A DNA stretch of 64,000 nt from Neoaquamicrobium sediminum (GTDB lineage: Bacteria > Pseudomonadota > Alphaproteobacteria > Rhizobiales > Rhizobiaceae): positions 124,001-188,000 of the forward strand of contig NZ_JABETK010000004.1 of NCBI RefSeq assembly GCF_013240295.1, given 5' to 3'. The translations under genes were made by a program, and so were the position numbers. How positions within the stretch are numbered: the stretch's first letter is position 1; the number at the start of each line of letters is the position of its first letter. This document shows, one piece after another, positions 42,551-55,936 of this stretch. The notes below the pieces were generated by a model. The model was not told the origin of the DNA. It was given only the letters and a program-made list of their open reading frames with translations, and searched no databases.

Positions 42551-44143
42551 ATGGCCGCATCGAATGCGACCCGGGTGACGCTCGAAGAACGCCTCGACTT
42601 CATCGGTCTCGATTCCTCGACCCGTCAGAATCTGAGGAACCTCAAGCCTCTCCTTTCGCGCGAAATCGGCCCGGCACTGAACGTCTTTTACGACAAGGTG
42701 CGGACCAACCCGCAGACCAGCGGCTTCTTTTCGTCCGCAACCCATATGGAGACCGCGAAGGGTCGGCAGGCAACGCACTGGACCGGCATTGCCGAAGCAT
42801 CCTATGGCGACAGCTACGAGCAGGCGGTCCGGCGCATCGGCGAAACCCATGCTCGTCTCGGCCTCGAACCGACCTGGTACATCGGTGGCTATGCGCTCGT
42901 GGCGGAGCATCTCGTCAAAGCGGTGGTCAAGGAAAACTGGCCGCGCCTGATGTCGCGCAGTGGGCCGGAAGCCATGAGCCAGGCGCTTGTCGCGCTGCTC
43001 AAGGCGATCATGCTCGACATGGACCTCGCGATCACCACCTATCTGGAATCGCTGGACGAGAAGCGTCGGCAGGCGGAAAACGCACGGCTCGAATCCGAAC
43101 GGCGCCAGAGCGAGGCGGTCAAGGCGATCACCAGGGCGCTTGGCGGCATCGCAGCCGGCGATCTGACGACGCGGCTTGAGGACGGGCTCGCCCCGGAATT
43201 CGACCAGCTCAAGGCCGATTTCAATCACACCGCAGCCGCGCTCGCCAGAACGCTTTCCTCCGTCGCGCAATCGGCGGACAGCATCGGTTCGAGCTCAGAG
43301 GAAGTCGGTCGGGCCGCCGACGACCTTTCGCGTCGCACCGAGCACCAGGCCATGCGGCTGGAGCAGACGGCTGCCGCGCTCAACCAGATCACCGGCAGCG
43401 TCAAGCGCGCCGCCGACGGCGCCTCGCAGGCTGCGGCCAAGGTGGTATCTACACGCGAAGAAGCACGGCACTCCGGCGAGATCGTGGGCAATGCGGTGCG
43501 CGCGATCAGCGAGATCGCAAAGTCCTCGCAGGAAATCTCCCAGATCATCGGCGTGATCGACGAGATCGCCTTCCAGACCAACCTGCTGGCGCTCAATGCG
43601 GGTGTCGAAGCAGCGCGTGCCGGCGACGCGGGCAGAGGCTTCGCCGTGGTAGCGCAGGAAGTGCGTGCTCTGGCGCAGCGCTCCGCTGACGCCGCCAAGG
43701 AAATCAAGACGCTTATCGCGACCAGCTCCGCACAGGTTGAGCAGGGCGTGAAATTGATGGCCGAAACCGGCGACGTTTCGGAGCGGATCATCGCCAGCGT
43801 GGTGGAAATCGATGAGCTGGTAGCCGGCATCGCGTCGTCGTCGCGTGAGCAGTCGTTGGGCCTGTCGGACATCAACACCGCCGTCAGCGAGATGGATCAG
43901 GGCACGCAGCAGAACGCGGCGATGGTCGAGCAGACGACAGCGGCCGTCCATTCGCTGCGCAGCGAGGCCGCGACGCTCGCCGAGGGCGTCTCCGCATTCG
44001 TTCTCGACAGCGCGCCTCGTGCAAAAGCGAAAGCGGCTGCATCACAGACGGGACGACCGGCAAGGGGGCAGCCGGTCTACGCAACTGCAGGGGCGACCGC
44101 ATTGGCGGTCAGGACGGAAACTTCCGAATGGGAAGAATTCTAG
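42551..44143 (+). CDS. globin-coupled soluble chemoreceptor
   Basis: A 530-residue methyl-accepting chemotaxis protein without membrane segments. The first ~175 residues are a sensor globin with the probable proximal heme ligand His100 in ETHARLGLEPTWY. A short HAMP-like linker leads to the signalling domain, with the hairpin tip [20 protein letters not shown] and methylation helices on both sides. The last residues WEEF form a CheR/CheB tether. Globin-coupled receptors usually sense oxygen. It is first in the che block, the position of icpA in Rhizobium and Sinorhizobium. The start at ATG 42551 has only GGGAA upstream. Confidence 0.92.
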   Translation: MAASNATRVTLEERLDFIGLDSSTRQNLRNLKPLLSREIGPALNVFYDKVRTNPQTSGFFSSATHMETAKGRQATHWTGIAEASYGDSYEQAVRRIGETHARLGLEPTWYIGGYALVAEHLVKAVVKENWPRLMSRSGPEAMSQALVALLKAIMLDMDLAITTYLESLDEKRRQAENARLESERRQSEAVKAITRALGGIAAGDLTTRLEDGLAPEFDQLKADFNHTAAALARTLSSVAQSADSIGSSSEEVGRAADDLSRRTEHQAMRLEQTAAALNQITGSVKRAADGASQAAAKVVSTREEARHSGEIVGNAVRAISEIAKSSQEISQIIGVIDEIAFQTNLLALNAGVEAARAGDAGRGFAVVAQEVRALAQRSADAAKEIKTLIATSSAQVEQGVKLMAETGDVSERIIASVVEIDELVAGIASSSREQSLGLSDINTAVSEMDQGTQQNAAMVEQTTAAVHSLRSEAATLAEGVSAFVLDSAPRAKAKAAASQTGRPARGQPVYATAGATALAVRTETSEWEEF

Positions 44144-44154
44144 AGGAGAGGGGC

Positions 44155-44442
44155 ATGGGCAAAACCGCCACGGAAAGCGTGACGCTTCCGAACGAACTCG
44201 ACATCAAGGCGGCCGGTCCGCTCGCGGCAGAGCTGCTGGCAGCACGCGGAAAGGACCTCGCTCTTAATGCGTCGCAGATCGAGCGCGTCGGCGGGCAATG
44301 CCTGCAGGTGCTGCTTTCGGCTGCCGCGACATGGGCCGCTGACGGCGCCGAGCTGACGATCGAGGAGCCTTCGCCCGCTTTTTTCGACGCGATCCAGACC
44401 GCAGGCCTCGACCTCACGCAATTCACCGCACGGAGCAACTGA
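44155..44442 (+). CDS. cheS: STAS-domain chemotaxis protein in the cheS position
   Basis: A 95-residue protein with a STAS fold pattern: LPNELDIKAAGPLAAELLAA, LNASQIERVGGQCLQVLL, then LTIEEPSPAFFDAIQTAGL. No Ser/Thr corresponding to a classical anti-sigma antagonist site is obvious. GAGGAGAGGGG precedes the ATG. It lies between the receptor and cheY1, the position of cheS (orf2) in Sinorhizobium meliloti, a protein of nearly equal size reported to bind CheA and speed dephosphorylation of CheY1. The symbol rests on position and size and needs an alignment. The stop is two bases before cheY1. Confidence 0.7.
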   Translation: MGKTATESVTLPNELDIKAAGPLAAELLAARGKDLALNASQIERVGGQCLQVLLSAAATWAADGAELTIEEPSPAFFDAIQTAGLDLTQFTARSN

Positions 44443-44444
44443 CG

Positions 44445-44810
44445 ATGGCGAAGACAATCCTGACCGTCGATGATTCGCGCACCATCCGCGAGATGCTGAA
44501 GGCGGCCCTTCTGGATGCCGGCATGGAAGTCGTGCAGGCCGAAGACGGTGTGCATGGCCTCGAAGTCCTGGAAACCTGCGATCCGGATGTGATCATCACC
44601 GACATCAACATGCCCCGCATGGACGGCTTCGGTTTCATCGAGGCCGTGCGTGGTTCCGACCGGCATCGCGCTATCCCCATCCTCGTGCTGACGACGGAAA
44701 GCGTCGACGAGAAGAAGGACCGGGCACGCCGGGCTGGCGCAAGCGGCTGGATCATCAAACCGTTCGATCCGGTCAAGCTCGTCACCGCGATCAACCGCGT
44801 CGCCGCCTGA
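44445..44810 (+). CDS. cheY1: chemotaxis response regulator CheY1
   Basis: A stand-alone 121-residue receiver domain. Acidic pocket VDDSRT, acceptor Asp53 in TDINMPRMDG, switch Thr in LTTES, conserved Lys in IIKPFDP. Position between the STAS gene and cheA equals CheY1 in rhizobia, which works as a phosphate sink rather than the main motor regulator. The stop is 19 bases before cheA. Confidence 0.93.
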   Translation: MAKTILTVDDSRTIREMLKAALLDAGMEVVQAEDGVHGLEVLETCDPDVIITDINMPRMDGFGFIEAVRGSDRHRAIPILVLTTESVDEKKDRARRAGASGWIIKPFDPVKLVTAINRVAA

Positions 44811-44829: not shown

Positions 44830-47060
44830 ATGGATACTATGGCCGCCATCAAGCAGACCTTCTTCCAGGAATGCGAGGAACAGCTCACCGAGATGGAAGA
44901 AGGCCTGATGGTGATCGAGCGCGAGGAAGGCGATCTCGAAACGATCAACGCCGTCTTCCGCGCCGTTCATTCGATCAAGGGGGCGCCGGTGCTTTCGGGC
45001 TCGACGACCTCGTGCGTTTCGCGCACACCTTTGAAACCACGCTTGACGGAATGCGCAGCGGCAAGCTGGAAATCACCCCGCAGATCGTCAAGCTCATGCT
45101 GCGCGCCGCCGACATCCTGTCCGACCTGGTGCGTATCTCCCGCGACGGCGGCGAGCTGGATGCTGCCCGCGTGGCGCAGATGGCGGAGGAACTCAGCAAG
45201 GCAGGCGGTGCTGTCCCCGCTCCGGCGGCTCCCGTTGCTCCTGTGGCCGACTTTTCGTTTGAACCTGTGGCTGCAGATGGTGACGGACCGGCAGTCGATG
45301 AGTTCGGTTTCGCGCCCGTCCAGATTTCCTTCGACACGCTCATCACCGACGGTGCGGGCAGCGACGGCCACACTTTCGAGATCAGCTTTACACCGCGACC
45401 GGAACTCTACGCCAAGGCCAACGATGCCCTGCGTCTGCTGCGAGAGCTTGGCCGTCTGGGCGAGATGAAAGTCAGCTGCGACGTTTCTGCACTGCCGGCG
45501 CTCGACGAGCTTGATCCGGAAGGTGCCTATCTGACCTGGAAAGTCAGCCTGACCACGGACGCTGATGAAAAGTCGGTTCGTGAGATTTTCGAATTCGTGG
45601 AATTCGATTGTGACCTGTCCATTGACGTCAATGTGGTTGGCATGGACGAGGAAAGTGCGGCCCAGACCGTCGAAGCCATCCTTGCCCAGGTCGCAGCCGA
45701 AGAAGCGGCCCAATCCGCCGCCGTCGAGCCTGTCGCAGTTGAGCCGGTCGTGATTGCGACAGAGCCGCAGGCAGCGCCGGATCCCGCACCCAGAACGCCC
45801 GTCGCAGCCAACCAGCAGTCCCAACCGGCAGCACAGTCGGGCCAGCAGCCCGGCGCCACCATCCGCGTTGATCTCGACCGTGTCGATCGCCTGATCGACC
45901 TGGTCGGCGAATTGGTTATCAACCAGTCCATGCTGGCGCAGCGTGTTACCGAGGCCGGCATCGCGCGCCTGTCGGATGTAGCTGTGGGCCTTGATGACCT
46001 CGAACACCTGACCCGCGAAATCCAGGATTCGGTGATGGCTATCCGCGCCCAGCCGGTGCGACCGATCTTCCAGCGCATGGCCCGCGTGGTACGTGAGGTC
46101 GCCGACATGACGGGCAAGTCGGTCCGCCTCGTCACCGAAGGCGAGAATTGCGAGGTCGACAAGACCGTTATCGAACGGCTGGCCGATCCGCTGACGCACA
46201 TGATCCGCAACGCGATCGACCATGGCCTCGAAAAGCCGGAGGATCGCGTGAAGGCCGGCAAGCCCGAGCAGGGTGTGGTCAAGATGGTCGCGGCACACCG
46301 CTCCGGCCGCGTGGTGATCGAGGTGTCTGACGACGGCGCCGGCATCAACCGCGCCAAAGTGCGCGAGATCGCGGTCAACAAGGGCATCATCGATGCCGAC
46401 GCCCAGCTCACCGATGCGGAGATCGACGATCTGATTTTCGCACCGGGCTTCTCGACTGCGGCAACCATCTCGGACGTTTCCGGTCGCGGCGTCGGCATGG
46501 ATGTCGTGCGCCGCTCCATCCAAGCGCTCGGCGGACGCATCACCATTTCCTCACGTCCCGGAAACGGCACAACCTTCTCCCTGTCGCTGCCGCTGACGCT
46601 GGCCGTGCTCGACGGCATGGTGGTCACGGTTGCCGGGCAGACGCTGGTCGTGCCGCTGTCGGCCATCGTCGAGACCCTTCAGCCGAAAGCCACCGATGTT
46701 CACGGGCTTGGCGAAAAGGCACGCGTGATCGCCATCCGCGGGTCTTTCATCCCGCTTGTCGATGTCGGCAGCGTGCTCAGCTACCGCGACGAGGAGGCCG
46801 ATCCGCTGCAGGGCGTGGCGGTGATGGTGGAGACCGAGAACCAGTCGCAATGCGCGCTGATGGTCGACGGCATCATCGGCCAGCAGCAGGTCGTCATCAA
46901 AAGCCTGGAAACCAACTACGGCCATGTCTTCGGCGTGGCGGCAGCCACCATTCTCGGCGATGGCCGCGTGGCTGTCATTCTTGACGTCGATGCAATTGTT
47001 GCCGGCTCTCGCAGCGATGTCGCGCGAGCCGACGCAAACCGAAAGAGGAGCGCAGCATGA
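44830..47060 (+). CDS. cheA: chemotaxis histidine kinase CheA (one-base frameshift)
   Basis: The central kinase of chemotaxis, bound to receptor arrays through CheW. Domains: HPt with His47 (FRAVHSIKGG), a P2-like region, an Ala/Pro/Gln-rich linker, dimerisation, the ATP-binding domain (HMIRNAIDHGLE N-box, SDDGAGIN G1, GRGVGMDVVR G2) and a CheW-like regulatory domain to the end. The frame breaks in the HPt at the G5 run 44979-44983; one more G gives HSIKGGAGAFGLDDLVRFAH. The repaired length is about 743 residues. The last base group overlaps the cheW start (ATGA). The error removes nearly all of CheA if uncorrected. Confidence 0.94.
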
Positions 47061-47533
47061 TCCAGGTCAGGGAACAGGACGCCACGGCGAGCAACGAGCT
47101 GATCGCTTTCCGCCTCGGCGAGCAGGAGTTCTGCGTCGACATCATGTCGGTGCGCGACATTCGCGGCTGGACGCAGACGACGCCGCTGCCCCATTCGTCG
47201 GCCTATGTGAAGGGCGTGATAAACCTGCGCGGCGCTGTGCTGCCGGTTGTCGACCTGGCCGCCAGGCTGGGTTTCGAGCCGGCGGAGCCGAGTGCCCGCC
47301 ACGTCATCATCATCACGCAGGTGGGACACCAGACGATCGGTCTGCTGGTCGATGCCGTCTCGGACATCCTGACCGTCGATTCCGGCGCGATCCAGGCGAC
47401 CCCCAACGTCGCCTCGGATCTGGCACGCACCTTCATGAAGGGCGTGATCGCGATGGAAGGCCGCATGATCAGCCTGATCGCGCTCGACAACGTGCTGACA
47501 CAGAACCAGGCAGGACAGGGCCTGCTGAACTGA
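47057..47533 (+). CDS. cheW: chemotaxis coupling protein CheW
   Basis: A 158-residue CheW adaptor that joins receptors to CheA. Conserved segments are [44 protein letters not shown] and GLLVDAVSDILTV. The start overlaps the cheA stop (ATGA). A second, similar CheW gene lies at 51515-51985 in the reverse block; the two share the unusual [10 protein letters not shown] segment, so they look like paralogues. Confidence 0.95.
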   Translation: MIQVREQDATASNELIAFRLGEQEFCVDIMSVRDIRGWTQTTPLPHSSAYVKGVINLRGAVLPVVDLAARLGFEPAEPSARHVIIITQVGHQTIGLLVDAVSDILTVDSGAIQATPNVASDLARTFMKGVIAMEGRMISLIALDNVLTQNQAGQGLLN

Positions 47534-47628: not shown

Positions 47629-48018
47629 ATGTCACTTCTTGCTCAGTTGAAAATCCTCGTCGTCGACGACACGACAACCAGCAGGCTTCTCGTCAGGGAT
47701 GCGCTCGAAACGCTCGGCTTCCGCAACATCCAGGTGGCGGCCGACGGCGAACAGGCGATGAAGATGATGATGACGACACCGTCGCATCTCATCATCTCCG
47801 ACATGAACATGCCCAAGATGAACGGGCTTCAGCTCCTGCATGCGATCCGGACGTACAAGCCGACGTCGCGTACGCCCTTCATGATTCTCACCGGCAGCCC
47901 AGACCGGGCTGTATTGGACGAGGGGCGCAAGCTCGGCCTCAACAACTATCTGACGAAGCCTTTCAACCCCGACCAGCTTCGCAGGGCGCTGGAAGCGATC
48001 GTGGGCAAGCTTCACTGA
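47629..48018 (+). CDS. cheY2: chemotaxis response regulator CheY2
   Basis: A 129-residue receiver domain. Acidic pocket VVDDTTTSR, acceptor Asp58 in SDMNMPKMNG, switch Thr in LTGSPD, Lys in LTKPFNP. The sequence is closer to rhizobial CheY2 (VVDD.xTSRLL and NMPKMNGL) than to CheY1, so it is probably the motor-binding regulator. It is separated from cheW by 95 bases. The gene for the DxxxQ protein, a possible phosphatase, follows 90 bases later. Confidence 0.9.
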   Translation: MSLLAQLKILVVDDTTTSRLLVRDALETLGFRNIQVAADGEQAMKMMMTTPSHLIISDMNMPKMNGLQLLHAIRTYKPTSRTPFMILTGSPDRAVLDEGRKLGLNNYLTKPFNPDQLRRALEAIVGKLH

Positions 48019-48108
48019 GGATCTTCTTGCGGGCAGTCCGCACGCAAGGGGCAGAATGCCGGTCGCGGTTTTGGCCGGAAGTGCGAGTAAAGCGTAGGGT
48101 TGAGTATC

Positions 48109-48495
48109 ATGAGCCATGCACAGCGCGAAGACGCGGCAGAAACGGCCGAGCTTGTGGCCGACGTTCTTGCCCGCATCCAGTCCGAGCTTGAAGATATCGC
48201 GCGCCGTATCGACCGCAACCAGGCCGCCATCGCACGGTCGACCTGGGATGTAGGGGCGGCAGACGCTGCATACGTTCAGGCCATGCAGGATGCCGACCTC
48301 AGCGCCCAGCGTATTGCCGGCGTGGCGGATTTCCTGCGCGCCATTGGCGATGCCGCGCATCCACAATGGCGGATCGATACAAGCGCCGCGACAGGTGCCC
48401 TCAAGCTGACTGAGCTGGCGCGCTCGATCGGGCAGACAGGTTCCTCTGTCCAGGCTAAGGACGAAGCCGCTGCCGGCGAAGTCGACCTGTTCTGA
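48109..48495 (+). CDS. CheZ/CheT-like chemotaxis protein with a DxxxQ motif
   Basis: A 128-residue, mostly helical, acidic protein. Residues 59-69 read MQDADLSAQRI; D63LSAQ67 matches the DxxxQ phosphatase motif of CheZ (DLTGQ in E. coli) and of the small CheT protein of Sinorhizobium meliloti. The neighbouring Gln-Asp and Arg-Ile also fit a CheZ-type helix. The C-terminus EVDLF could be a partner-binding tail like that of CheZ. It lies just after cheY2 in the che block, so dephosphorylation of a CheY is a reasonable inference; no overall CheZ likeness is seen. The ATG at 48109 is chosen. Confidence 0.72.
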   Translation: MSHAQREDAAETAELVADVLARIQSELEDIARRIDRNQAAIARSTWDVGAADAAYVQAMQDADLSAQRIAGVADFLRAIGDAAHPQWRIDTSAATGALKLTELARSIGQTGSSVQAKDEAAAGEVDLF

Positions 48496-48501
48496 CAGGT
48501 T

Positions 48502-48831
48502 TCAGCCGAACACGGGCGTCCCTTCTACAAAGACCCTCATAGACGCTCCAAAAAGCAGGGTTGCACCCGTTACCGACATCGCGGCCGACGTTGCAATGTC
48601 GACACGATGCAACGGGTTTAGGACGATGCCGGCCGACGCCTCGTCAGAAACGCGTTTCATGGCGCGGACGCGCCACCACTGCAGCAACGACACTACCGCC
48701 AACGGCATTGCCCCGACCGAGTTGATAGGCAACGTCGAGGGCATGATCAGTCCGCTGGCCGCAACAAGGGCGGCAAGCAGCAGCCGCGTCACCGCCGACA
48801 GCAGACCAAGCCAATGCGCAATATTCTTCAC
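48502..48831 (-). CDS. possible small membrane protein
   Basis: An open frame of 109 residues between the two converging che blocks, starting with GTG at 48831. It has hydrophobic segments such as LLSAVTRLLLAALVAASGLI and SAAMSVTGATLLFGASM, consistent with three membrane helices. I recognise no family, and no good ribosome binding site is visible. It ends seven bases from the end of the DxxxQ gene. It may be genuine or a chance frame. Confidence 0.4.
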   Translation of the reverse strand: MKNIAHWLGLLSAVTRLLLAALVAASGLIMPSTLPINSVGAMPLAVVSLLQWWRVRAMKRVSDEASAGIVLNPLHRVDIATSAAMSVTGATLLFGASMRVFVEGTPVFG

Positions 48832-48915
48832 GCCGCGACTCTAGCGGGCTGCAGTCGCGAACGCTATCGCAGCTCGACGCGCCTGCGTTGCTGCCCGCGA
48901 CAACAACGCTTCAAC

Positions 48916-49511
48916 CTAGAACAGCTCGACTGAGCCCTCGCTTTCGACCGGCGGCACCGGCCGGGTACGGCGCTCGACATCGAACACCTGGATGCTCTCG
49001 CGTTCCATCAGCGATTGCCGGGCACGCCCGGAGACTGGCCAGAACTGCACCTTTCGCCCATGCTCGCCAAGCAGGCTTCCGCCCACATGACGAATGCGTT
49101 CGGCAGCGAGAAAGCGCTCCGCAAACTCCGCGTTCTGCCGGCCGACGTCGGTGAGACCGTCGATAAGCCGCGCTCCCCCAAAAGCTTGGCTTCGAGCCGC
49201 TCGCGCCGCGCTCCGCGCGACAGAAGCGCGTTGACGAGCAACTCCATGGCATGAACGCCGTGGCGCTGCGCCTGGGAATCCGTGCCTTGCGATCGATTGC
49301 CCGGCAGAAGAAAGTGATTCATGCCGCCGACACCGGCGACGGGGTCACGCATGCATGCGGCCACGCAGCTTCCCAGCAGCGTCGTCAGCACGGCTTCAGG
49401 ATCGTCGGTAACGAACTGCTCGCCCTGCACGACATGGACGCGGAGCCCGCCGGTGACGGAAGACGGTACGCCGGGCGGGCTTCGCTCGATCATGCCGCGT
49501 GTCATCGCCAT
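48916..49511 (-). CDS. cheD: chemoreceptor glutamine deamidase CheD (one-base frameshift)
   Basis: CheD deamidates Gln residues of chemoreceptors. The N-terminal part has the catalytic Cys in LGSCVAAC and the His in [10 protein letters not shown]. The frame breaks after LEAK; one extra base in the A4/C5 runs at 49175-49183 gives the typical [15 protein letters not shown], then [18 protein letters not shown] and an end SVELF at 48916. The repaired length is about 198 residues. Read without repair, the last third is nonsense. It is the last gene of the reverse block, 82 bases after cheB. Confidence 0.9.
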
Positions 49512-49593: not shown

Positions 49594-50634
49594 TCAAGCT
49601 GTTTCCCTAGTCGCGTTGCACCGGTTGATGATTTCCGCACCGATGCGTTCCAGCGGCAATTGCCGCTCGACCGCCCCTACCTCGAATGCAACCCTCGGCA
49701 TGCCGTAGACCACCGATGTCTGTTCATTCTGGCCGATTGTCGCCGCGCCCGCATTGCGCATGGACAAAAGCCCATTGGCCCCGTCGCGCCCCATGCCCGT
49801 AAGGATGACGCCGACAGCGCCCTTGCCGGCAACGCGGGCGACAGAATCGAACAGAACATCCACAGAGGGGCGGTGCCCGTTGACCGCAGGCTCAGGAACC
49901 AGCCTGCATCGAAGCTGCGTCGATCCGACGACCTGGAGATGGTTGTCGCCTCCTGGCGCCAGATAAATCTGGCCGACGCGGAGCTGTGCGCCTTCGCTTG
50001 CTTCCTCGACATGGGCGGCGCAGGTCCGGTTGAGGCGCTCCGCGAAGCTTCTGGTGAAGGTGCCCGGCATATGCTGGGTGATGACAGTCGGCGGACAGTT
50101 GGCCGGAAAGGCCGACAGGACAGACAGTAGCGCTTCCACGCCACCGGTCGACGAACCGATCGCGACGATCCGACCGTCGGGTTTGAAATCGCCACCGGCG
50201 GCATGGCTGGGTGCGCGATCGGAACCTGGACGCACCCTTGCCCGCGCGGCCGCCTTCACTTTGGCCGCCAAACTGGCAAACGCCTGCTCGGCGGGCACGC
50301 CGGCGGATGGCTTACCGACACAATCGATGGCGCCGATTTCCAGCGCCGCAAGGCTTACGTCGGCTCCGACCTGCGTCAGAGTGGAGACCATGACCACCGG
50401 CATTGGCCGCAGGCGCATGATCTTTTCCAGGAACGCCAGGCCGTTCATGTTCGGCATCTCGACGTCGAGCGTGATGACGTCCGGATTGAGCTGCTTGATC
50501 GCCGCCTCTCGCGCTTCGAGCGGGTCGCCGGCCTGCCCGACCACGGAAATCTCCGGATCCCGACGGAGCACGGCGGAAATGAGGCTGCGCATCGTCGCAC
50601 TGTCGTCGACGACGAGAACCCTCACCGAACTCAT
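49594..50634 (-). CDS. cheB: chemotaxis methylesterase CheB
   Basis: A 346-residue protein with an N-terminal receiver domain ([10 protein letters not shown], acceptor Asp57 in [10 protein letters not shown]) and a C-terminal methylesterase domain with the Ser of [11 protein letters not shown], His of QHMPGTF and Asp of [10 protein letters not shown]. It removes methyl groups from receptors after phosphorylation by CheA. It overlaps the cheR stop by ATGA. Both receptors of the window end in WEEF, which could recruit it. Confidence 0.96.
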
Positions 50635-51518
50635 CGAGCACCGTCCTTGAGACGATATGTCGTGAGACCATCGGTTTCAAACTTGACCATGTCGGTGACG
50701 CGCTCCGAATGGCCGACATAGAGCCGTCCGCCCGGGTTCAGCAGCGGCCCGAAGCGCCCCCAGATCCGCGCCTGTGTCGCCTCATCGAAATAGATGACCA
50801 CGTTGCGGCAGAAGATGGCGTCGAACCTGCCCTTCATAGGCCAGTTGCCCATCAGGTTCAGCTCGCGGAACGAGACCAGACGCCGCATTTCCTCGCCGGC
50901 ACCCCAGGCATCTCGTGCCCCGTCCTTGACCCTGACCATCCAGCGATCGCGCAGGGCCGAAGGCACCGGCTGTACGGCTTCGTCGGAATAGACGCCGGCA
51001 CGTCCCGTCGCGACCACGTTGGGGTCGATGTCGGTCGCGAGAATGCGCACGTCGTATTGTGCCGCATCCGGCAGCATGTCGAGTAGTGTCAGCGCGATCG
51101 AATAAGGCTCCTGCCCGGTCGAGCAACCCGCCGACCAGATGCGCACACGCCCCCGCGCCTTGGCACGGCTGACGAGTTCCGGCAGAACCCGGCTTTTCAG
51201 ATGCTCGAAATGATGCGGCTCACGGAAATAGCGTGTCACGTTGGTCGTTAGCGCGGCCAGCATGTTCTGGCGCTCGCTGGTTCCTTCGGAGCCGCCGACG
51301 AATTTGCAGTAATCGCGGAAGCTCTCCAGCCCCAGCGCCCGCAACCGCTTCGCGAGCCTGGAATAGACCAGCGAGGCCTTGCTTTCGGTCAGCGCAATGC
51401 CGGCGTCGTCGTACAGCATCCGCGCGATGGAGAGGAAATCATCGTTGGTGAAGAGGAACTCGCCCTCGACCAACGCCTGCTGGCGTGCACCCGTCGCAGG
51501 CCTGATGGCGGTCGTCAT
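50631..51518 (-). CDS. cheR: chemotaxis methyltransferase CheR
   Basis: A 295-residue S-adenosylmethionine-dependent enzyme that methylates receptor glutamates. The N-terminal helical domain is followed by [17 protein letters not shown], the SAM site [22 protein letters not shown], and FCRNVVIYF. It overlaps cheW2 upstream and cheB downstream by four bases each. CheR of this type binds a C-terminal pentapeptide on receptors, and both receptors here have one. Confidence 0.96.
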
Positions 51519-54311: not shown

Positions 54312-55571
54312 TCAGGCCGGCATACCCTCGGCACCCTTCTGCAACCTGTCGAGATGCCGTCGGATGTGGCTCGCCTCGGCGGTCGTATTGGCGCATGAAA
54401 TCGCCTTCTCGAATGCAGCCCTTGCTTCACGCGACCGACCGAGCTCAAGCAGCAGCGCGCCCCGCACGCCGTGGAAATGGAAGTAACCCTCGAGTGAGCC
54501 GGACAGGGGCTCGATCAACTGAAGCGCGTCAGTCGCTCCGGCATGCTTGGAAACCGCCACAGCGCGGTTCAGAGTGATGACCGGTGAAGGCTGCAGGGTC
54601 TCGAGCATCTGGTAATATTGATCGATCGCGCGCCAGTCGGTGTCGACAGCCTGCTTCGCCTTGGCGTGCTCGTAGGCGATAGCCGCCTGAAGCTGGTAAG
54701 TGCCGGGCCGGTTATGGCGTGCCGCCTTCTCGATCAACGCCGCTGCTTCCGCCATAAGCGAGCCGCGCCACAGGCTGCGGTCCTGCTCGTCGAGCAGCAC
54801 GATCTCGCCCTCCGCGTCCAGACGCGCAGGCACACGGGCATGCTGGAAAAGCATCAGCGCCACCAGACCCATCAGCTCCGGCTCGCCGGGGTACATTCTC
54901 AGGAGCAGGTAGCCGAGCCTTATCGCCTCGTCGCACAGCGGCTCGCGGATGTGGGCCTCGCCGCCGCTGGCGGAATAGCCTTCGTTGAAAAGCAGATAGA
55001 CCATCGCCGTCACGGTCGCGATGCGTTCGACACGGTCGACCGCGGAAGGCGTCTCGAATTCGACCCCGGCGGCAGCCACCTTGCGCTTGGCGCGGGTGAT
55101 GCGCTGCTCCATCGCGGCTTCGGAAACGAGGAAGGCCCTTGCGATCTCCGGCACGGTGAGGCCGGATACGATCCGCAGCGCCATGGCAATCTGCTGCGTG
55201 GCCGGCAGGTCCGGATGGCAGCAGATGAACAGCAGCCGCAGCACGTCGTCGCGGTAGTCGGCATTGTCGAGGCGTTCCGCCATCGACGGCTCGGTATCGT
55301 CAAGATCGGACAGCGTTTCTTCGTCAGGCAGCGCCTGCTGCCGGCCGCGCTTCCTGATGTCGTCCACACCGGCATTGCGTCCGACGAAGATCAGCCAGGC
55401 CGCGGGGTCGCGCGGAGGGCCCTTCTGCGGCCAGTTCTTCAGCGCGCGCAGGCACGCCTCCTGAAAGGCCTCTTCTGCCGTGTCGAGGTCGCGGAAATAC
55501 CGCATCAGCGCGCCCACAACCTGCGGCCGTGCCGCCGAAAGGGCCTGATCTATCCAGGAAAGGTCGTTCAC
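54312..55571 (-). CDS. ECF-type sigma factor with C-terminal TPR region (ECF42-like)
   Basis: A 419-residue RNA polymerase sigma factor. Region 2 includes YFRDLDTAEEAFQEACLRAL and RDPAAWLIFVGRNAGVDDIR; region 4 includes GLTVPEIARAFLVSEAAMEQRI. The C-terminal ~230 residues are helical with TPR-like repeats (YLLFNEGYSAS, then ALLLELGRSREARAAFEKAI), as in the ECF42 group. ECF42 factors have no anti-sigma factor and are usually encoded beside a DGPF (YCII) protein, as here, where the genes overlap by four bases. What activates it is unknown. Confidence 0.9.
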   Translation of the reverse strand: MNDLSWIDQALSAARPQVVGALMRYFRDLDTAEEAFQEACLRALKNWPQKGPPRDPAAWLIFVGRNAGVDDIRKRGRQQALPDEETLSDLDDTEPSMAERLDNADYRDDVLRLLFICCHPDLPATQQIAMALRIVSGLTVPEIARAFLVSEAAMEQRITRAKRKVAAAGVEFETPSAVDRVERIATVTAMVYLLFNEGYSASGGEAHIREPLCDEAIRLGYLLLRMYPGEPELMGLVALMLFQHARVPARLDAEGEIVLLDEQDRSLWRGSLMAEAAALIEKAARHNRPGTYQLQAAIAYEHAKAKQAVDTDWRAIDQYYQMLETLQPSPVITLNRAVAVSKHAGATDALQLIEPLSGSLEGYFHFHGVRGALLLELGRSREARAAFEKAISCANTTAEASHIRRHLDRLQKGAEGMPA

Positions 55572-55936
55572 GTTGCCTCCGCAGGGGGTACATAGGCCGA
55601 GATGGGTCTCACCTCGACACCGCCGAATTCGCGTTCTCGCGCCAGATGCTTCCCGGCCTCGATGGCATCTTCGAGCGAGGCGCAGTCGACGATCCAGAAC
55701 CCCAGCAGCTGCTCCTTGGTCTCGGCAAAGGGACCGTCAATGACCAAAGGATCCTGCCCCGCCTTGACGAAGGTGGCGGCGGTGGTCGGCATCAGCCGCA
55801 ACCGTGGACCGAATTTGCTCTTGGCAACGATCTTCTCCTCGGCTGCGCGGACGCGGCTCATCATGGCCTCGTCGTCTTCCTTGGAAAGGCCGCAGACGGC
55901 TGCCTCGTTGTTGTAGCAGAGAAGGGCATAAAGCAT
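55568..55936 (-). CDS. YCII/DGPF-domain protein
   Basis: A 122-residue protein with the DGPF motif in LVIDGPFAETKEQLLGFWIV and an N-terminal MLYALLCYN. Such proteins accompany ECF42 sigma factors, are often among their targets, and have no firmly known biochemical role. The stop overlaps the sigma factor start (ATGA), so the two are co-transcribed with this gene first. Confidence 0.9.
   Translation of the reverse strand: MLYALLCYNNEAAVCGLSKEDDEAMMSRVRAAEEKIVAKSKFGPRLRLMPTTAATFVKAGQDPLVIDGPFAETKEQLLGFWIVDCASLEDAIEAGKHLAREREFGGVEVRPISAYVPPAEAT

Follow-up and report, generated by a model that had tools for sequence, protein, structure and literature searches.

The window, that is, the whole stretch of 64,000 nucleotides of Neoaquamicrobium sediminum analysed here, contains at 48109-48495 of the forward strand an open reading frame (ORF) that runs from an ATG to a stop codon and translates into 128 residues ending in EVDLF. 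The length, the DxxxQ motif and the EVDLF tail given by the original prediction were all as it had read them, and the frame starts 90 bases past the end of cheY2. It closes a rightward row formed by a globin-coupled chemoreceptor, a STAS-domain gene, cheY1, cheA, cheW, cheY2 and cheT, which faces a leftward group with a chemoreceptor, cheW, cheR, cheB and cheD. The features of this region are the following:

42551..44143, + strand: globin-coupled chemoreceptor, head of the operon (PF11563 Protoglobin, PF00015)
44128..44442, + strand: STAS-domain gene in the cheS position (PF13466, position)
44445..44810, + strand: cheY1, response regulator (PF00072; product 69-74% identical to the cheY1 product of L061-L072, loci of other genera)
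44830..47060, + strand: cheA, with a one-base frame break near 44980 (PF02895, PF02518, PF01584)
47057..47533, + strand: cheW (PF01584)
47629..48018, + strand: cheY2, response regulator (the best solved match is a chain named CheY2, 1p6q)
48109..48495, + strand: cheT, diverged CheT-family protein of 128 aa with D63 and Q67 in a DxxxQ (NF047973 at E 1.5e-14, conservation, gene order)
48295..48309, + strand: putative phosphatase motif, codons of D63-L-S-A-Q67 (D and Q in 44/44 rows)
48475..48492, + strand: conserved C-terminal tail GEVDLF (alignment conservation)
49008..49511, - strand: cheD as read, frame broken near 49180, with the ORF end out of frame (PF03975, first half)
49594..50634, - strand: cheB (PF01339)
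50631..51518, - strand: cheR, sole genome match at E<=1e-20 (PF01739)

CheS is linked to a STAS domain, which agrees with the reading of 44128..44442 as standing in the cheS position. The protoglobin chemoreceptor at the head suggests that oxygen may be an input of the operon. A scan of 47900-49100 for promoters and terminators found none. Farther along, at 54312-55936 on the - strand, a sigma-factor-like ORF of 419 aa was recognised from its translation, as was a small YCII-type-like ORF of 122 residues that precedes it.

Two genes of the cluster have a broken frame. cheA is one base short after HSIKG near 44980 (44975-44990 of the window, + strand), in or beside a single-base run, and cheD lacks one base near 49180 (49170-49190, - strand), in or beside single-base runs. 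The cheA stretch HSIKGGAGAFGL is in one open frame in all eight named relatives, and cheD is open across the break site in L050, the sole relative compared. Since two such losses lie less than 5 kb apart in genes that are otherwise intact, the breaks are probably assembly errors, a real loss of a base being the less probable alternative.

Regarding the family of the 128-residue protein, it matches the NCBIfam CheT model NF047973 with an E of 1.5e-14 over model positions 1-110 of 130, and at E<=10 this model finds only the 48109-48495 place in the genome. The match scores 54.1 bits and therefore fails the naming (equivalog) cut-off of 200 bits. The seven other genomes of this Aquamicrobium-like genus reach 37-56 bits; among 60 related genomes the model matches 19 at E<=0.01, and 4 of these 19 exceed the cut-off. 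Because other genomes below 200 bits keep the usual gene order, this value governs the naming and does not delimit the family. By its profile match, the protein is a diverged relative inside the CheT family and not the equivalog itself. Pfam, with matches up to E 10, offered no fitting model. A profile built from 22 CheT sequences (alignment A3) detects CheT at E<=0.001 in 65 of the 151 genomes of the bacterial family, at one place each in 64 of them and as two short pieces in the 65th (G253), and an eight-member alignment (A1) finds eight named loci from Aquamicrobium, Aminobacter, Mesorhizobium and one unclassified Hyphomicrobiales record. Three other matches of the protein within its own genome (E 0.03 to 1.0) were not taken as CheT.

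The protein resembles CheT of Sinorhizobium meliloti and Agrobacterium fabrum (NF047973) in its length, 128 residues against 130 model positions, in its DxxxQ and acidic-aromatic C-terminal tail, and in the place of its gene, which comes last in a che operon that contains two cheY genes. It differs from them in its low identity to other genera (22-31%, L052 and L053 aside) and in its score below the naming cut-off; moreover, the gene here stands directly after cheY2 and not after cheD, and cheR-cheB-cheD lie on the opposite strand. Literature searches, in which subscription journals were mostly outside the scope, returned no paper on CheT of this genus, and one on chemotaxis in Aquamicrobium gave no paper at all.

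The order cheY2-cheD-cheT is the usual one, as it was found in 33 of 42 loci, namely the twelve loci L061-L072 of other genera, L053 and 20 further genomes. In the other nine, which are the window genome, the seven others of its genus and L052, cheY2 and cheT are adjacent, so that cheT remains the last gene and near cheY2 but is not after cheD. L053, from Mesorhizobium xinjiangense, has the usual order together with a CheT that is 43% identical to that of the window in the matched stretch, and judging by these two traits it is a bridge between the usual-order loci and the Aquamicrobium-like group. CheR is matched in all eight genomes of the genus; in three of them, which are drafts (G001, G003 and G006, with loci L047-L049), it is on another contig than cheT, and no cheR, cheB or cheD lies within 8 kb after cheT. 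Apparently, the cheR-cheB-cheD block has changed its place with respect to the main operon. The globin part of the chemoreceptor is present at the operon head, with 55-95% identity, in L046, L047 and L049-L052. At E<=0.01 the genome has three CheW-domain places, one CheA and two CheW, all in this cluster, and the CheZ family has no match at E<=10; therefore, the cluster is the only chemosensory core found in the genome, as counted on an assembly that is 94.85% complete.

A DxxxQ in one sequence is no evidence, because 12401 of 20000 shuffles of this 128-aa protein contain one; D63-L-S-A-Q67 is the sole DxxxQ of the protein. Its conservation is another matter. All 44 aligned CheT rows share D63 and Q67, and they represent 42 different genes, since L099 duplicates L030 and L103 is a shortened version of L052. 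These rows comprise the 22 of alignment A3 and 22 taken from the 30 best-scoring loci of the family-wide profile search, so that they cover the better-matching part of the family, with the lower-scoring half of those 65 genomes outside the alignment. The residues invariant in all rows are E26, Q60, D63, Q67, L100 and G123. Within the tail, G123 is followed by D or E at position 126 in 43 of 44 rows and by F128 in 42 of 44. CheT proteins of other genera share only 22-31% identity with it, apart from those of L053 (39%) and L052 (54%), and it is the invariance of D63 and Q67 down to this level, unlike the motif alone, that counts as evidence. The conservation of both residues in orthologues, on which the original prediction had made its own case depend, is thus complete among these rows, and its claim of likeness to CheT is supported by this invariance as well as by the profile match and the gene order. 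Regarding selection, dN and dS were 0.087 and 1.14 against L050, and 0.174 and 1.10 against L046, dS near 1 being close to saturation in both comparisons. Since dN is far below dS in both, the ORF is to be regarded as under purifying selection.

An AlphaFold model made with nine sequences (pLDDT 72.6, pTM 0.58) predicts a hairpin of two helices, residues 16-48 and 53-82, and a low-confidence tail. D63 and Q67 are one turn apart in the second predicted helix, in blocks of pLDDT 85-91. According to the conservation-averaged hydrophobicity, D63, Q67 and Q60 face 145-165 degrees from the hydrophobic side of this helix, whose hydrophobic moment is weak (0.21) and which has a hydrophobic position, 56, on the side of D63. 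Neither burial of D63 and Q67 nor a placement on different faces, either of which had been named as evidence against the prediction, was seen; both are in the same helix and on its polar side, as judged from conservation and not from exposure on coordinates. The CheT profile had 13 matches among solved structures, the best being keratins (E 1.5e-5), followed by other helical proteins and by chemoreceptors at E 0.67 and weaker, and CheZ was absent from the 13. The single sequence had three matches, with gamma-glutamyl phosphate reductase as the best (E 2.6e-6). We attribute the matches of both searches to helix composition. Foldseek with the hairpin model gave 94 matches with E values up to 10, of which none reached E<=0.001, and CheZ was not among the best 50; VIA-align gave unspecific hairpins, and CheZ was not among the 50 entries listed of 250 chains. 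Neither absence suffices to rule out a CheZ fold.

The likeness to CheZ that had been claimed holds for the motif and the tail, but that of the profiles is not significant. Like CheZ (PF04344), the protein has a DxxxQ and an acidic-aromatic C-terminal tail, the role of this tail in CheZ being what lies behind the comparison. Unlike CheZ, it does not match PF04344 up to E 10, it has no significant profile-profile match, and it is short, with 128 aa versus 201-287 aa in the 24 CheZ proteins collected. The comparison of 22 CheT rows with 23 CheZ rows (L078 was left out of the 24 as near-identical to L075) gave a probability of 1.8% and a P of 0.028. Although the best stretch places D63 and Q67 on the CheZ motif, 4 of 200 column permutations reach its score, and reversed profiles give 20.0 and 18.8 versus 19.2. 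We do not claim homology of CheT and CheZ, as the score is no better than the controls; the likeness is limited to motif, helix and tail, and it may be convergent. HisKA_3 sensor kinases also carry a DxxxQ phosphatase motif on a helix, with equal spacing, whereas the CheT-like protein has no kinase domain. The statement that rhizobia lack CheZ agrees with this genome, which belongs to an Aquamicrobium-like member of the Hyphomicrobiales and is rhizobial in a loose sense of the word, and where none was found at E<=10, and at E<=0.001 there was none in the seven genomes of the bacterial family (this one and six more) listed from a sample of 120 genomes of the phylum. As a general rule it does not stand, since one study describes a CheZ that is present and matters for chemotaxis in a rhizobium, Azorhizobium caulinodans (PMC8429497).

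Beyond the family membership by profile, the operon position, the conservation and the selection observed for CheT here, the full explanation that we favour, and hold to be reasonably probable, is that of a diverged CheT orthologue which is likely a hairpin phosphatase acting on CheY1~P. CheT would fold as a long two-helix hairpin and pair into a CheZ-like four-helix bundle, and its conserved acidic-aromatic tail would bind a phosphorylated CheY. D63 and Q67, in the second helix, would place a water for attack on the phosphoryl group, a role proposed after the chemistry of CheZ, and this attack would speed the loss of phosphate from CheY. The likeliest target would be CheY1~P as a phosphate sink; the drained CheY1 would take more phosphate back via CheA, and CheY2~P at the motor would be lowered. 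CheT may also have kept the ability to dock to CheR that is reported for S. meliloti.

CheY1~P rather than CheY2 is our best guess for the substrate because of the orthology to S. meliloti CheT, for which Agbekudzi et al. 2024 are said to have found that the CheY affected is CheY1~P, the phosphate sink. The original prediction had raised an action on CheY2 instead, which did not find support, as this orthology points to CheY1. A review states that CheT of S. meliloti has DXXXQ, that of two CheYs it enhances the dephosphorylation of one only, and that it forms a complex with CheR (PMC12654446). Regarding the two regulators of the window, their products are 69-74% (CheY1) and 48-54% (CheY2) identical to those of L061-L072.

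That the target of CheT in this genus is the motor regulator CheY2~P, with a direct CheZ-like shut-off in the place of the sink scheme, is unlikely in our opinion. Every one of the eight genomes of the genus does have cheT directly after cheY2, as does L052, and in three of the eight cheR is on another contig; nevertheless, the adjacency accompanies cheR-cheB-cheD lying elsewhere, and cheT is still the last gene of the operon. K92 of E. coli CheY contacts the CheZ aspartate, and the equivalent position, mapped through the alignment, holds R or K in all 22 CheY2 rows and in none of the 22 CheY1 rows, CheY1 having two lysines two and three positions beyond it. If anything, this would favour CheY2 as the substrate. 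However, R or K is present there in all lineages, the usual-order loci included, and therefore marks no switch; we dropped it as a guide, as it points to CheY2 everywhere, even where experiment reportedly says CheY1. A chain model of CheY2, a linker and CheT gave no confident assembly (pTM 0.43, mean pLDDT 64.6, low tail), a result that counts neither for nor against CheY2. Correlation of the evolutionary distances of CheT with those of its neighbours, for which L070 and the repeats L054-L057, L059 and L060 were left out, did not separate the two regulators either and was dropped as a substrate test: the partial values for all 21 loci were 0.76 for CheY1, 0.82 for CheY2 and 0.43 for CheA; those for the genus with L052 and L053 (10 loci) were 0.86, 0.85 and 0.85; and the other 11 loci gave 0.10 for CheY1, -0.22 for CheY2, 0.30 for CheR and 0.57 for CheB, whose values in the 21- and 10-locus sets are spoiled by loci without a nearby cheB. 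The stronger version, in which the Aquamicrobium-like CheT would have been recast as a direct CheY2 phosphatase that forms a two-gene unit with cheY2 and is freed from CheR, seems to us quite unlikely.

We regard it as equally doubtful that CheT here is an adaptor, for instance one that connects CheR or CheY1 with the signalling array, with D63 and Q67 kept for binding and no phosphatase activity. In S. meliloti the cheT deletion and the motif mutants reportedly differ in phenotype, which would fit an adaptor. So would the invariance of E26, L100 and G123 outside the motif and the binding of CheR by S. meliloti CheT that the review describes (PMC12654446). Nevertheless, the invariance of D63 and Q67 at this spacing is what catalysis predicts, and in three of the genus's eight genomes cheT and cheR are on different contigs. 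Finally, an unrelated helical hairpin, e.g. a WXG100-like one, with a chance DxxxQ is highly improbable. The motif is common by chance, WXG100-type hairpins are among the top VIA-align rows, and there is a weak WXG100 match (23.8 bits, E 3.7e-5), which is below its cut-off of 44.85; yet the CheT model matches about nine orders of magnitude better, the Z of 8-9.5 of the helical hairpins is in the range that VIA-align calls unspecific, and neither the operon position nor the invariance of D63 and Q67 agrees with such a hairpin.

The protein is thus of no new kind; it is an ordinary relative from a known family, encoded in an operon that has been rearranged, and it extends CheT to sequences below the cut-off of the current naming model, which is useful for annotation. 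D63 and Q67 persist where most other CheT residues have changed, although the function itself may have drifted, given the 54 versus 200 bits and the identity of 22-31% to other genera. If CheT were here a phosphatase of CheY2, signal termination would resemble the CheZ scheme of E. coli and not the sink of S. meliloti. This genus offers a natural test of whether the choice of CheY by CheT can change.
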